Made by a program: the position numbers and the translations under genes
Notes under the pieces: generated by a model
Database searches by the model: none
Seen by the model: only the letters and a program-made list of their open reading frames with translations
Told to the model about the DNA's origin: nothing
Source: Bacteroidota bacterium
GTDB taxonomy: Bacteria; Bacteroidota; Bacteroidia; Flavobacteriales_C; GCA-002722245
Length of the DNA: 34,498 nucleotides
Reading direction: 5' to 3'
Assembly: GCA_026390935.1 (NCBI GenBank)
Contig: JAPLEZ010000145.1
Coordinates: 208,003-242,500, forward strand
Shown here: positions 8,249 through 14,069 of the stretch, one piece after another
Layout of the letters: every line of letters starts with the position of its first letter
Numbering within the stretch: position 1 is the first letter of the stretch

Positions 8249-9403
8249 ATGGGCGTAAAGTTAAGAGAAAAACAGTTAAGTAGCGGACAAATATCCTTTT
8301 ATTTGGATATATATCACAATAAGGCGCGCTGGTATGAGTTTTTGGAAATTCATATCAACAAGAGCCGATTAAGCAGCGACGACAAGGAAAAAAAGCGCTT
8401 GGCTCAGGAGATCAGGAGCAGAAGAGAACACGAATTAATTGTGCAGGACAACGGACTACAAGACAGAAAGAAAAAACTAGGCTGCTTTGTTCGTTTTTTT
8501 GAAGATTACACCAAAGAAAAAAAGAACAAAGGCATTTACAATAGTGTTTTGGGGAATCTAAAAAAATATATGGGCAAACAACCCTTACCTTTTGCGAAGA
8601 TCAGTGCCGAATGGATGAAAGAATTTGAGAATCACCTTTTAGAAAGAGTGAGTAATAACAGCACCCTTCGTTATATGGAAGCAATTACCTGTGTTCTCAA
8701 CGAGGCAGTACGCAGAAAAATCATTACAAGAAATCCTTGGTATGATGTGTCCCCCAACAAAAAAATAAAGATGAAAGAAATATACAGAAATTCTTTTACC
8801 ATAGAGCAATTGCAAACGCTTTCCAATACGGTAGTAGATATTGATCCGCAAATCAAACAAGGCTATTTCTTTTCTTGTTTTACAGGACTTAGATGGAGCG
8901 ATGTAAATCCACTTCGATGGGATAATGTTATTACCAAAGAAATAGAGGGTAAAATTGAATACTTTCTTTATTTCCAGCAAGAAAAGACAGAAGGAATAGA
9001 ATACCTTCCACTATCTGAAAATGCCATTGATATTATTAAAGAAAGACAAAAGCAAGCATTGGATGAAGAACCAAGCCTTTACGTTTTTCCAAGTTTAAAG
9101 GAAAGTGAAAAAGGAGCGAAAAAAGAATCCTACCAGCGACTGGTAAGGGCATTAAAGAAGTGGGCAAAGGCTGCTAAAATTGATCCTAAGAAATTACATT
9201 TTCATAGCGGTCGGCATACCTTCGCCACCAACGTTTTAGAAAGTAGCGCCGATGGGGATTTGTACACCGTTTCAAAATTGCTCGGTCATAAAAACATCAA
9301 CGCCACACAGATTTACGCTAAGGTGCGCGACAAGCGCAAACACGCAGCGGTGAAAGCGCTCCCTAAAATTGATTTTACAAATTCTAATTTGAGAGTGGCT
9401 TAA
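8249..9403 (+). CDS. Tyrosine recombinase / site-specific integrase
   Basis: A 384-aa tyrosine recombinase with an N-terminal arm-binding region, a SAM-like core-binding domain (about residues 80-170) and a C-terminal catalytic domain. All catalytic residues are visible: Arg215 (TGLRWSD), Lys246 (QEKTEG), His319 and Arg322 (HSGRHTF), His347 (LLGHKN) and the nucleophile Tyr356 (TQIYAKV), so it is probably active. The N-terminal style (ISFYLDIYHNKARWYEFLEI) is that of integrases of Bacteroidota integrative elements. It is oriented away from tRNA-Ala, begins the accessory block that runs to about 14.1 kb, and is closed by a strong hairpin at 9429-9464. Confidence 0.93.
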   Translation: MGVKLREKQLSSGQISFYLDIYHNKARWYEFLEIHINKSRLSSDDKEKKRLAQEIRSRREHELIVQDNGLQDRKKKLGCFVRFFEDYTKEKKNKGIYNSVLGNLKKYMGKQPLPFAKISAEWMKEFENHLLERVSNNSTLRYMEAITCVLNEAVRRKIITRNPWYDVSPNKKIKMKEIYRNSFTIEQLQTLSNTVVDIDPQIKQGYFFSCFTGLRWSDVNPLRWDNVITKEIEGKIEYFLYFQQEKTEGIEYLPLSENAIDIIKERQKQALDEEPSLYVFPSLKESEKGAKKESYQRLVRALKKWAKAAKIDPKKLHFHSGRHTFATNVLESSADGDLYTVSKLLGHKNINATQIYAKVRDKRKHAAVKALPKIDFTNSNLRVA

Positions 9404-9428
9404 TCCTTTGTGTTGGCATTTTTTTTCC

Positions 9429-9464
9429 AATAAAAAGCTCAGACCTCCGTTTGAGCTTTTTATT
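9429..9464 (+). terminator. Rho-independent terminator after the integrase gene
   Basis: A 13-bp stem (9429-9441 pairing with 9452-9464; core AAAAAGCTCA/TGAGCTTTTT) with a 10-nt loop, A-rich before and T-rich after. It should work in both directions and lies 26 bp after the integrase stop. Confidence 0.85.
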
Positions 9465-9573
9465 TTGATTGTAGTAAGGCATCAATATTATTATTTCCTA
9501 AATTAAACAGTGAGATATAAAGAACATACTTAAATTAGACTAGCGATACCCGCTTTTAAAACTATTATATTTT

Positions 9574-10383
9574 ATGGCAAAGAAAACCAATACTAAAATC
9601 CCTAACAAGCACTTAGCAGTTCCAATGTTGGCAAGAAAATACATGAAGGATTGTGAAGTAGTAATGGCGGGATTCCCTGAAGGTAAGAAGATTGAATTTT
9701 TAGAGCATTTACTGGATTGTATAGCTGTTGTAGAAATATACCTTTCAGATCCAAGCAAGGAGAATTGGGATATTTACGCTAAAAAAGAAAATGCCTTTTT
9801 AAAAAATCACGGCAAGCAATTGACGCTTTATCGTCAAAAAAATATTTACCAGTATTATTGTAGTCCTATGGTGCTGGCAGAAAAAGGTATTTACACTCCA
9901 GAGCAGTGGAATTCTTTAAACCCGGAGCAGCAGCAACTTAGTAATGAGCAGTGGAAATCATTTTTTCATTTGTGCCGAAATTCACTTTACAATGAACGGG
10001 ATTATTTACTTCTGGAACAAAGTTCAGCGGATGAAAAAGAAGAAAATAAAAAAAATGAATCTTTGGAAGGAACACCTGAAAATCCCTCTAAAAAAGGAAG
10101 ATTAACACGCCAAGCCAGTGATAAGTTGACGATTTTAAGTCAGGAACAAACAGTGTTATTGATGTTTTACCTGCAACAGGAAAAGGTGTTTTTAAAAGAT
10201 GAGTATTTGACCGATATGGATGCAGGAAAAGCATTTGAGATTTTGACAGGATACAGCCAGCATACTTTAAGACAAAAATTGAGTAAATATTATCTCTATC
10301 AGAATAGGGAAAATCTAAAAGAAATCGACCATTTGTTAACCCGATTAAAAATAGCGGTAGACAAGACTTTGAAAGAAAAGTGA
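9574..10383 (+). CDS. Accessory-element protein of unknown function (269 aa)
   Basis: I do not recognise a named family. It is a hydrophilic, presumably cytoplasmic protein. There is a conserved-looking N-terminal block (residues 10-130), a charged Glu/Lys/Asn-rich linker (about 147-175, EEKEENKKNESLEG region) and a C-terminal helical domain with the phrase LTGYSQHTLRQKLSK, which resembles the C-terminal, probably DNA-binding, part of regulators found next to integrases in Bacteroidota elements (RteC-like at best). Inside the coding sequence, TTGACG and CGTCAA form a 6-6-6 inverted repeat at 9820-9837. It lies between the integrase terminator and the HTH gene and is likely part of the same element. 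Confidence 0.7.
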   Translation: MAKKTNTKIPNKHLAVPMLARKYMKDCEVVMAGFPEGKKIEFLEHLLDCIAVVEIYLSDPSKENWDIYAKKENAFLKNHGKQLTLYRQKNIYQYYCSPMVLAEKGIYTPEQWNSLNPEQQQLSNEQWKSFFHLCRNSLYNERDYLLLEQSSADEKEENKKNESLEGTPENPSKKGRLTRQASDKLTILSQEQTVLLMFYLQQEKVFLKDEYLTDMDAGKAFEILTGYSQHTLRQKLSKYYLYQNRENLKEIDHLLTRLKIAVDKTLKEK

Positions 10384-10434
10384 AACACCGAAAGTACTGC
10401 CCTGTTTCATCTTAATTCTTTCTCTACATAAGGG

Positions 10435-10453
10435 TTACATGTGGGTTCATGAA
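10435..10453 (+). repeat. 19-bp direct repeat, copy 2
   Basis: TTACATGTGGGTTCATGAA, two substitutions from copy 1 at 8159-8177; the similarity extends 5 bp further upstream with one mismatch. It contains the first in-frame ATG (10449) of the HTH ORF, which argues that this ATG is part of a regulatory or recombination element and not the translation start. Confidence 0.55.
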
Positions 10454-10511
10454 TCGAGAAAAATTCAAAACCGCATATTATCTTGCTTTCTTAACCAATA
10501 AAGAAAGCTAT

Positions 10512-10850
10512 ATGTCAGTATCATTTTTAACCAATCTAAACGAAGAAGAGTTCAAGACTTTTCTTAAATCGGCAATCTCTGAAATCATGGGCGGAACGCT
10601 CCATTTTTCCAAACCTTCTTTGCCGGATATTTTCGATATTAAACAAGCGGCGGATTTTCTCAAACTGAAAATCAACACGCTTTACGAAAAGACATCGAAG
10701 AAAATAATTCCGCATTTCAAGAAGGGAAATAAGTTGTATTTCAACCGGGCAGAACTGCAATCGTGGTTGCAGGAAGGAAGAGTGAAAACTACGGATGAAA
10801 TACAGGGAGAAGCAGTGAGTTACTCTATCGGAAAAGGATTGAAAAAGTAA
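10512..10850 (+). CDS. Excisionase-like helix-turn-helix protein
   Basis: A 112-aa small DNA-binding protein of the MerR-like/excisionase (HTH_17) type. The core is FDIKQAADFLKLKINTLYEK followed by IPHFKKGNKLYFNRAELQSW, the pattern of a winged helix with the aromatic and Lys-rich wing. Such proteins bend DNA and assist excision, or act as repressors, in integrative elements. I place the start at 10512 (MSVSFLTNLNEEEF), the usual N-terminus for this type. An ATG at 10449 would add 21 residues but lies inside the repeated element 10435-10453. The next gene starts 18 bp downstream, so a small operon is likely. Confidence 0.82.
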   Translation: MSVSFLTNLNEEEFKTFLKSAISEIMGGTLHFSKPSLPDIFDIKQAADFLKLKINTLYEKTSKKIIPHFKKGNKLYFNRAELQSWLQEGRVKTTDEIQGEAVSYSIGKGLKK

Positions 10851-10867
10851 AAACAAAAACTCAATTT

Positions 10868-11257
10868 ATGGAAACTACCTATTTAAAAACATCCGCTCTT
10901 TTTCTGCATGAAATTCTTTATTATACGATTTCAAAAGGATTGAACAACAAAATTCTATCCAAGAAAGATGAAATCTATGTGATAGAAATATCTTATACAG
11001 AAGAGCAAAAACCAATTATTGTTGAACTTTATGTAATGATTGAAAAATTGAGGGTTTTCTTTTTGACTTTTACCCTGAGCTCTGCGCTTTACTTAAGTGA
11101 ATTAGAAAGGCTGAAAGAAAAAGAGTGCTATTTAAAAAGAAACGCCGCTATGCAAAGAGACAATCCTTATAGACGAGGGTCTTTTTTGCGGAGTATTAAA
11201 AACGAAAATTCAAATCAAGACTTCAATCAACCGTCAGATCAAGCTCTAGGAATATAG
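10868..11257 (+). CDS. Hypothetical accessory protein (129 aa)
   Basis: No family is recognised. The middle has a long hydrophobic run (VMIEKLRVFFLTFTLSSALYLSEL, about residues 56-79) that may be a membrane segment or a buried helix. It is followed by a strongly basic stretch (KEKECYLKRNAAMQRDNPYRR) and an Asn/Gln-rich tail. It starts 18 bp after the HTH gene and ends 28 bp before the next gene, so it is probably co-transcribed. Codon usage and AT-richness resemble the neighbouring accessory genes. Confidence 0.6.
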   Translation: METTYLKTSALFLHEILYYTISKGLNNKILSKKDEIYVIEISYTEEQKPIIVELYVMIEKLRVFFLTFTLSSALYLSELERLKEKECYLKRNAAMQRDNPYRRGSFLRSIKNENSNQDFNQPSDQALGI

Positions 11258-11284
11258 AACAGTCAACCATTAAATTCAACAGTT

Positions 11285-11674
11285 ATGACAGAAGAAAATC
11301 AAACGGGAAATAATCAAACCCTAAATAATCAAACAGATAATAATTCCCCTGCGGTAAAAACCAGCACGGAGAACAAGGATAATAATGAAATGCCTAAATG
11401 GGTGAAAGACTTCCTTCCTCCTATTCTTAGTGCTTTGGGAAGTATGGGCGGAAGTTATATGATATGGATAAAACCACTTCAGGAAAAATTAGAATCATTA
11501 GAAAAAAAGGTGAAAGAAGTACTCGATCAAATAGAGGAATTGCAGGAAGAAAACAACCAATTAAAAAAGCTGATGGGGTCGAATTCTCAAAAGCAGAATG
11601 ATTTTGGCGCGACTAATTATTTACCTGTGAAAACATTCGCTCCGCAAAGATCAACTTATCGGGGGAACTTTTAA
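11285..11674 (+). CDS. Small coiled-coil protein with a short hydrophobic segment
   Basis: 129 aa, family unknown. It has an Asn/Gln/Thr-rich disordered N-terminus (residues 1-36), a hydrophobic stretch FLPPILSALGSMGGSYMIWI (about residues 43-62) that may be a single membrane helix, a clear coiled coil (residues 63-96, LQEKLESLEKKVKEVLDQI and on) and a flexible tail. The layout suggests a membrane-tethered or oligomeric accessory protein. Three phased CGTCAA motifs follow its stop codon. Confidence 0.62.
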   Translation: MTEENQTGNNQTLNNQTDNNSPAVKTSTENKDNNEMPKWVKDFLPPILSALGSMGGSYMIWIKPLQEKLESLEKKVKEVLDQIEELQEENNQLKKLMGSNSQKQNDFGATNYLPVKTFAPQRSTYRGNF

Positions 11675-13016: not shown

Positions 13017-14069
13017 ATGGGAAAACTCAAAAAAATAAATTCTGAAGAACTGCTTTTTAATGATATTACTAAGCTCATTGAAGAAAGTAAAAAATATGTA
13101 GCGCACACGGTAAACGCTACGCTTACCATATTATACTGGAAAATCGGAAAAAGAATTAATAGAGATTTGTTAAAGAATAAACGAGCTAATTATGGCGCTC
13201 AAATTGTCGCGACGCCGTCGCGACAATTGACAGAAAAATATGGGAGTGGATTTGGAGAGAAAAGTATTCGGCGAATGATTCAATTTTCCGAGGTTTTTCC
13301 GGATGAAAAGATTGTCGCGTCGGCAACGCGACAATTGAGCTGGTCTCATTTTATAGAATTAATACCTTTGAAACAACCTTTGAAACAACCTTTGAAACGC
13401 GCGTTTTATGCAGAAATGTGTCGTATAGAAAGATGGAGTATAAAAACGCTGCGTAAAAAAATAGATGGTATGCTTTATGAGCGTACCGCCATAAGTAAAA
13501 AGCCAAAGCAACTGATAAAACAAGAAATAAAACAATTACGAGATGAAGATAAACTCACTCCCGACTTGGTTTTCAGAGATCCTTATTTCCTTGATTTTTT
13601 AGGCTTAAAAAATACGTTTAGCGAAAAGAACCTTGAAGATGCTATTCTGCGGGAGTTAGAGAGTTTTATACTGGAACTTGGACAAGGTTTTTCTTTTATC
13701 GAACGACAAAAAAGAATGGTGATTGATGGGGAGGATTTTAGATTGGATTTATTGTTTTATCACCGAAAGTTGAAACGTCTTGTGGCCATAGAATTGAAAT
13801 TAGGAAAGTTTAAAGTTGGTTATAAATCACAAATGGAACTGTATCTCCGATGGCTGGAAAAGAACGAAATGCAAGCAGGAGAAGAAACGCCTATTGGATT
13901 AATTCTATGCGCAGAGGGGAGCAAAGAGCAAATAGAGTTATTACAATTAAATAAATCAGGAATTAAAGTAGCAGAATACTTGACTGATCTGCCAAGTAAA
14001 CAATTATTACAAGAAAAATTACATCACGCAGTAGAAATATCAAAAAAGCATATTGAAAACAACGAGTAA
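13017..14069 (+). CDS. yhcG: DUF1016 / YhcG-family PDDEXK nuclease-domain protein
   Basis: A 350-aa homologue of E. coli YhcG: an N-terminal helical DUF1016_N domain (about residues 10-165, with NATLTILYWKIGKRI, SWSHFIEL and MLYERTAISKKP) and a C-terminal PDDEXK nuclease-like domain (about 180-340). The putative active-site residues are Asp244 (FRLDLLFYHR), Glu259 and Lys261 (AIELKLG), all present. The family is found scattered in defence, plasmid and restriction-system islands; its biological role is unsettled. Unusual features: two DNA palindromes with identical outer arms encode IVATPSRQL (63-71) and IVASATRQL (99-107), and a 12-bp tandem repeat gives PLKQPLKQPLKR where relatives usually have a single PLKR-like unit. 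It has its own promoter box and is the last plus-strand gene of the accessory block. Confidence 0.9.
   Translation: MGKLKKINSEELLFNDITKLIEESKKYVAHTVNATLTILYWKIGKRINRDLLKNKRANYGAQIVATPSRQLTEKYGSGFGEKSIRRMIQFSEVFPDEKIVASATRQLSWSHFIELIPLKQPLKQPLKRAFYAEMCRIERWSIKTLRKKIDGMLYERTAISKKPKQLIKQEIKQLRDEDKLTPDLVFRDPYFLDFLGLKNTFSEKNLEDAILRELESFILELGQGFSFIERQKRMVIDGEDFRLDLLFYHRKLKRLVAIELKLGKFKVGYKSQMELYLRWLEKNEMQAGEETPIGLILCAEGSKEQIELLQLNKSGIKVAEYLTDLPSKQLLQEKLHHAVEISKKHIENNE
13202..13228. repeat. 27-bp perfect palindrome inside the DUF1016 gene
   Basis: Arms of 13 bp (13202-13214 and 13216-13228, outer sequence AATTGTCGCG) around a single C. The reading frame is kept and encodes IVATPSRQL. The outer arms are shared with the repeat at 13311-13335. 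Confidence 0.9.
13311..13335. repeat. Second palindrome with the same arms inside the DUF1016 gene
   Basis: 10-bp arms ATTGTCGCGT (13311-13320) and ACGCGACAAT (13326-13335) around a 5-nt spacer. The outer 9 bp on the left and 12 bp on the right are identical to those of the first palindrome, with the same total length; only the central 7 bp differ. The centre-to-centre distance is 108 bp. Confidence 0.88.
13365..13398 (+). repeat. 12-bp tandem repeat (CCTTTGAAACAA, 2.8 copies)
   Basis: Copies at 13365-13376, 13377-13388 and a partial copy at 13389-13398, encoding PLKQ-PLKQ-PLK(R). In-frame slippage expansion inside the DUF1016 gene. Confidence 0.85.

Follow-up and report, generated by a model that had tools for sequence, protein, structure and literature searches.

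DUF1016/YhcG nuclease genes carry co-varying in-frame palindromes predicted to be recognised by the proteins they encode

We propose that each gene of the DUF1016/YhcG nuclease family carries one or more in-frame palindromic DNA sites recognised by its own protein, and that binding at these sites may repress the gene. Recognition of the palindromes by the encoded protein is the firmer part of this proposal and is predicted with good confidence, and autorepression as the main consequence of such recognition is suggested tentatively, at slightly less than even odds.

The gene from which the family was compared lies at 13017-14069 on the + strand of the window, the whole stretch of 34,498 nucleotides of Bacteroidota DNA that was analysed, and encodes 350 amino acids. 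Its product consists of an N-terminal DUF1016_N domain and a C-terminal PD-(D/E)XK nuclease domain, YhcG_C (Pfam PF17761 and PF06250, E 1.3e-41 and 4.9e-44), which score 142 and 150 bits against curated cut-offs of ~ 33, and PADLOC assigns the gene to the candidate defence singleton PDC-S02 (HMM E 1.7e-123). The DUF1016_N domain (residues 16-156, 13062-13484, + strand) is all-helical in an AlphaFold2 model (pLDDT 91.7, pTM 0.83) and is the putative DNA-binding part of the protein. A Foldseek search with the N-domain model gave no significant match, the top one being ParB/Noc (E 0.3, TM 0.36-0.39), and a PDB sequence search gave no relevant match. The nuclease domain (residues 185-335, 13569-14021, + strand), placed by Pfam, invariant columns and Foldseek, is the sole good structural match of the full-length predicted fold and resembles the NucS/EndoMS-type structure 2vld (Foldseek E 9e-5). 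D244 and K261, the latter in an ELK motif at 259-261, are invariant in 61 homologues and are candidate catalytic residues. Adjoining the gene, positions 8249-11674 of the window hold a probable mobile element with a tyrosine integrase, an excisionase-like HTH_17 protein and small genes of unknown function.

Two palindromes are found in frame inside this gene, as the original prediction had described them with their arms, centres and nonapeptides. S1 (13202-13228, no strand assigned) is a perfect 13-1-13 palindrome, AATTGTCGCGACG-C-CGTCGCGACAATT, which covers codons 63-71 and encodes IVATPSRQL. S2 (13311-13335, no strand assigned) is a 10-5-10 palindrome, ATTGTCGCGT-CGGCA-ACGCGACAAT, which covers codons 99-107 directly before SWSH and encodes IVASATRQL. 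They are the predicted cognate DNA sites 1 and 2 of the protein. Read as direct repeats, they have 9 left and 12 right bases in common with 7 variable bases between. With 3 mismatches allowed, the pattern matches these two sites only in the window, where 0.07 matches are expected, and the pair is no chance feature. Likewise, TTGTCGCG-N7-CGCGACAA with at most 2 mismatches is found in the 3.76-Mb genome at S1 and S2 only, hence the pattern is not a dispersed repeat. Just 3' of S2, at 13364-13399, three tandem 12-bp copies (ACCTTTGAAAC[AG]) encode PLKQ repeats in the protein.

The palindromes are real but not peculiar to the window gene: they recur as a constant, co-varying trait throughout the DUF1016 family. 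The homologues compared came from 395 Bacteroidota genomes and from a bacterial and archaeal genome collection (80 loci of 56-81% identity from many phyla and from methanogenic archaea), and the analysis as a whole sampled ~ 150 DUF1016 genes. The S1 and S2 positions are palindromic in nearly all those homologues while the arms differ between genes, with GTCGTGACACTGTCACGAC, GTTGCGACACTGTCGCAAC, GTGCACACAGTGTGTGCAC, CTCTCAACACTGTTGAGAG and TTGCCGACACTGTCGGCAA among the examples and others besides. In the close homologues (n = 97-98) the mean number of Watson-Crick pairs out of 12 is 10.35 for S2 and 9.39 for S1, and at least 9 of the 12 pairs are formed in 89 and 78 genes respectively; about 20% of the S1 sites in this set are poor palindromes. 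When synonymous codons are drawn from the same gene, the means are 5.33 for S2 and 4.93 for S1, and when arms are swapped among homologues they are 8.04 and 7.41 (sd 0.11-0.17), with 0 of 500 reaching the observed values. Furthermore, the pairs 4-22, 7-19 and 10-16 co-vary through amino-acid changes. Nonapeptide changes that keep the pairing are seen at positions 2/8 (V2/Q8 versus L2/E8 versus L2/K8) and at positions 3/7 (A3/R7, Q3/A7, H3/A7, N3/S7, S3/T7).

The same feature is displayed at larger distances. A palindrome is present in 56 of 69 homologues of ~ 35% identity, usually at or shortly 5' of a [LIF][SP]W[ST] motif, and the palindromes in these genes total 70 compared to 11 after codon shuffling. 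Scanning 100 whole genes with their flanks, only S1 (49/100) and S2 (72/100) stand out, and no palindromic site is found on the promoter side. The codon-shuffling and homologue-recurrence test that accompanied the original prediction strongly favours symmetry at the DNA level, and the palindromy of S1 and S2 is almost certainly constrained as DNA. In one pseudogene, L021, which has six in-frame stops, both S1 and S2 are still near-perfect palindromes.

In order to discriminate between DNA and RNA, mismatches were counted at arm positions 4-11 of the good sites, which contain 1024 Watson-Crick pairs, 37 G/T and 28 A/C mismatches. A stem in sense-strand RNA should clearly favour G-U, so that the similar numbers of both mismatches point to DNA rather than mRNA. 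An mRNA hairpin in the coding sequence, possibly bound by the encoded protein, which would act in translation control, in pausing or as an RNase target, could draw on the sense-strand stems of 9-17 bp and on the covariation of the arms, but in addition to the low G-U tolerance the symmetry runs on into the would-be loop positions 12-14 and the arm sequence, beyond its pairing, follows residues of the protein (see below). We regard such a hairpin as very improbable.

The arms of S1 and S2 are moreover related to each other within a gene. With phylogeny controlled, S1 is closer to its own S2 than to the S2 of a relative in 2040 gene pairs and the reverse holds in 234, and a nearest-neighbour version of this comparison gives 42 versus 18. 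Arms that are alike beyond relatedness suggest that the arm sequence matters, not the pairing alone. This sharing sits at arm bases 6-10 and 16-20 and is missing from the centre bases 12-13, a pattern expected of two half-sites separated by a spacer rather than of a tract that was copied. S1 and S2 have different arms in roughly half of the genes, meaning that one site is often off the exact consensus. Some distant homologues without S1 (L173, L191) have a site 55-60 codons 3' of S2 which carries the arms of S2.

The original prediction also proposed a palindromic element spreading through coding DNA. A mobile palindrome inserted into DUF1016 genes, similar to the RPE or REP elements, would agree with the one to three in-frame tandem copies found in Escherichia coli alleles. 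However, palindromes with unrelated arms occupy the identical position in homologues of ~ 35% identity, and instead of dispersed copies the genome of the window has the two places only. The pattern AATT-N5-GAC-N3-GTC-N5-AATT was searched in 390 Bacteroidota genomes, with 30 listed loci. Of these listed loci, 25 form 11 or more of the 13 pairs, and 24 of them are inside DUF1016 genes or fragments of them; the 5 with at most 10 pairs are outside such genes. The well-paired pattern is hence restricted to DUF1016 genes apart from one match. This lone exception (L150, 1501-1527) matches the DUF1016 type and is perfect, with 13/13 pairs, at a locus with no detectable DUF1016 homology. Given the fixed position and this confinement, a mobile palindrome is a most unlikely explanation. 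In a viral contig collection the exact window site is absent and a protein search gave no relative, and a looser pattern has 16 matches there, 4 of which are inside DUF1016 genes.

The evidence that carries the recognition proposal is a relation between arm bases and residues of the N-domain. For pairs of genes, the identity of the arms was regressed on identity at single residues, controlling for overall protein identity. For S2 the top columns are residues 86, 82, 89, 121, 142, 85, 110, 146 and 114, and for S1 residues 86, 142, 146, 110 and 114 are within the top six. By mutual information, the best of ~ 310 columns for S2 is residue 82 for base pair 6, residue 86 for base pair 7, residue 113 for base pair 9 and residue 110 followed by 142 for base pair 10, while S1 independently assigns base pairs 6, 7, 8 and 10 to residues 82, 86, 114 and 110. 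In the close set, K82 occurs with C at base pair 6 in 43/43 cases and R82 with G in 9/12; at base pair 7, H86 occurs with T in 13/13 and N, S, Q or Y86 with C in 7/8; R113 occurs with C at base pair 9 in 10/11 and T142 with G at base pair 10 in 21/24. Residues 82, 85, 86 and 89, which co-vary with arm bases 6-7, form one face of the predicted helix 81-93 (13257-13295, + strand), the putative recognition helix. Residues 110 and 113, which co-vary with arm bases 10 and 9, belong to the predicted helix 109-115 (13341-13361, + strand), and the predicted helix 142-150 (13440-13466, + strand) contains residue 142, co-varying with arm base 10, and residue 146, co-varying more weakly with the arm.

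The residue scan of the close set was exploratory, and the code was afterwards checked in an independent set, made up of 55 distant homologues of ~ 35% identity. There, R82 is coupled to G6 (21/2 versus 5/27, p 1e-8), S110 to A10 (23/4 versus 1/27, p 2e-10) and R or K113 to C9 or T9 (20/0 versus 2/33, p 5e-13), and these couplings are also significant in a reduced set of 40 genes with less than 70% identity. Taking 71 disjoint closest sister pairs as independent contrasts, the four base-residue relations have p values from 2e-5 to 3e-7, and residues 86, 113 and 110 each come out top for their base, with residue 82 in second place for its own. The two natural allele types of E. coli agree at the first palindrome: the arm has C6 where residue 82 is K and G6 where it is R. 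Local linkage along the gene was considered as a source of the code and is disfavoured, since S1 shows coupling to residues 82-146 but none to the residues beside it, pointing to the same residues as S2.

The relation extends to synonymous positions. The third base of Ala101 tracks residue 113, GCC occurring with R in 5/5 and GCT with K in 4/5, GCA mostly with T113 and GCG with V, I or L113 (0 of 5000 permutations), and the third base of Val100 tracks residue 82, GTC going mostly with K, GTG with R and GTT mostly with S (0 of 5000 permutations). The peptide is unchanged here while the codon follows the residue, which indicates that the DNA is the thing read. Contacts at the protein level, by which the peptide encoded by the palindrome would touch helix 81-93 and co-vary with its residues and DNA symmetry would be a by-product, could draw on the likeness of the S1 and S2 peptides within a gene; they have no need of palindromic codons, nor do they reach synonymous third bases, and we give this explanation hardly any weight.

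A purely mutational drive was also considered, in which the arms, without any function, arise and are repaired by template switching at quasi-palindromes and become alike because S1 and S2 are copied onto each other. Template switching is able to create and maintain perfect stems (PMC8794818), the L021 pseudogene retains its near-perfect palindromes, and position 9, often unpaired, is common to S1 and S2 as well. Against this, such a process cannot couple arm bases to residues 82, 86, 110, 113 and 142, some of them ~ 100 bp away, and the coupling is seen at synonymous sites and in independent lineages; moreover the sharing between S1 and S2 skips the centre, unlike a copied tract, and the palindromes are limited to one gene family. 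Mutational drive is therefore an improbable account. As far as can be read from the alignments, DUF1016 proteins and the palindromes of their own genes co-evolve, with the match of base to residue expected of a DNA-binding domain. That the half-site is a recognition site of the nuclease itself, as first suggested, is strongly supported, since the arm bases follow particular residues of the N-domain even where codons are synonymous, do so in both of two independent sets of genes and do so again between sister genes.

Under the proposal of recognition and autorepression, the N-domain would read the site sequence-specifically, with arm bases 6-7 read by the face of helix 81-93 and bases 9-10 by residues 110, 113 and 142. 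Because the site is two-fold symmetric, a dimer is expected to bind it with one half-site per subunit. Binding inside the open reading frame would act as an operator or a roadblock within the coding sequence and repress the gene, and a mobile, potentially harmful nuclease gene would thereby be held in check by its own brake at any promoter it reaches. The arms differ between paralogues within one genome, as separate switches or immunity types would require. One DNA stretch would then obey protein, symmetry and recognition constraints simultaneously.

The conserved nuclease domain counts against repression as the only role of the protein, and with its catalytic residues conserved the protein may also cleave same-type copies. 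In a rather unlikely extension, the gene would be a self-targeting unit whose nuclease reads its own hypervariable palindrome for two ends, self-repression and the destruction or exclusion of copies of its type that arrive on other elements; arm types would in that case serve mobile elements as a kind of immunity type, and the code between protein and DNA would be a readable one. Alternatively, the palindromes could be cleavable targets, the nuclease cutting incoming or extra copies of the gene or, in certain conditions, the gene that encodes it, with exclusion of sibling elements or recombination at the palindrome as the outcome. The conserved catalytic residues, the PDC-S02 assignment of the family, the differing arms of paralogues, DUF1016 genes on plasmids, beside integrases or type I RM genes, and the E. 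coli deletions and allele blocks that end at palindromes are all consistent with it. Yet a constitutively cut resident site should vanish, whereas near-perfect symmetry persists, and there is no constant partner methylase. We consider cleavage of this kind unlikely, with something like one chance in four. Several DUF1016 genes are associated with RM loci or integrases; one of these is a plasmid gene (L214, 5986-11602) with hsdS and a gene for a type I restriction endonuclease immediately 3' of it.

Precedents exist for parts of this arrangement. The phage T4 homing endonuclease I-TevI uses its DNA-binding domain also to bind a target-like operator that controls its own gene (PMC2988022). Recognition by the protein of a site in its own gene region, the hallmark of an autorepressor of the I-TevI type, is indicated for DUF1016 by residue-base coevolution, and as in I-TevI a nuclease would repress itself by binding, here proposed from sequence only. 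I-TevI differs in being a GIY-YIG enzyme with an operator upstream, over the promoter, of one phage gene, whereas the DUF1016 sites are within the reading frame of the DNA-binding domain, family-wide and of hypervariable specificity. Furthermore, the target of a homing endonuclease is the empty allele without the gene, and the DUF1016 site is within the gene itself. ParB/Noc proteins have a dimeric all-helical domain that reads a short palindrome (parS/NBS) with specificity set by four residues (PMC7383237). They are the top, non-significant fold match of the DUF1016 N-domain, but ParB, a CTPase, serves chromosome segregation, has many sites and keeps a fixed specificity, and DUF1016 proteins possess a PD-(D/E)XK nuclease domain. 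In Bacillus subtilis, a parS site is located within the parB gene spo0J. The lac O2 and gal OI sites are intragenic operators inside coding sequence; they are single cases, in the regulated gene and not in the repressor's own DNA-binding domain. Rickettsia palindromic elements are in-frame palindromes in coding genes (PMC4316617), but they are 100-150 nt long, selfish and dispersed over many genes, compared to ~ 25 nt, one gene family, a fixed position and co-variation for the DUF1016 palindromes.

The YhcG family was described in 2005 as a PD-(D/E)XK domain with an unknown N-domain of ~ 200 aa, and the passages on YhcG in that description report no function, DNA site or palindrome (PMC1189080). 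In the open-access papers searched, we found none that links DUF1016/YhcG to palindromes and no precedent for a family in two domains of life whose DNA-binding domain has its own hypervariable site within the codons that encode it. For a very widespread nuclease family, present in Bacteria, Archaea and plasmids and a candidate defence gene, the proposal would predict the DNA target, assign recognition to a domain and supply part of a residue-to-base code, and the DUF1016 arms would offer a natural set of long palindromic specificities that are orthogonal to one another.

Shuffling of the N-terminal domain by recombination, also raised in the original prediction, receives side evidence only, from block ends and some IS-linked deletion ends at the palindromes of E. 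coli. The K-12 yhcG gene has three in-frame palindromes, the longest with 19-base arms of which 17 pair, and among alleles one to three tandem copies are gained or lost in frame, two being lost in frame in the L119 allele. Alleles also differ in a block whose end is the palindromes, and IS- or transposase-linked truncations of yhcG, IS1 among them (L114, 3001-3500; L115, 2288-3744), end inside palindrome 3, at K-12 gene positions 406 and 385. Such rearrangement, as a side effect, requires no special function.

K-12 YhcG (L113, 5828-6955) lacks the two Trp residues that are invariant in 61 homologues, W41 being replaced by Q and W109 by R, and its palindromes contain mismatches; the other E. 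coli alleles compared retain both Trp. From its sequence, the K-12 allele is probably inactive, and it is in this allele that extra palindromes with G6 disagree with K82. About 16 bp 3' of its stop codon (L113, 6971-6995) lies a perfect non-coding palindrome, ATTCTGCAGACAGTGTCTGCAGAAT, whose core recurs at the same distance in the other E. coli alleles. Finally, N-terminal relics of DUF1016 genes are found at L144 (1368-1553) and L135 (1229-1660), where an LYWRIGK-like sequence is fused straight to a palindrome, and at L144 this relic runs into an hsdM-like reading frame close to the palindrome.
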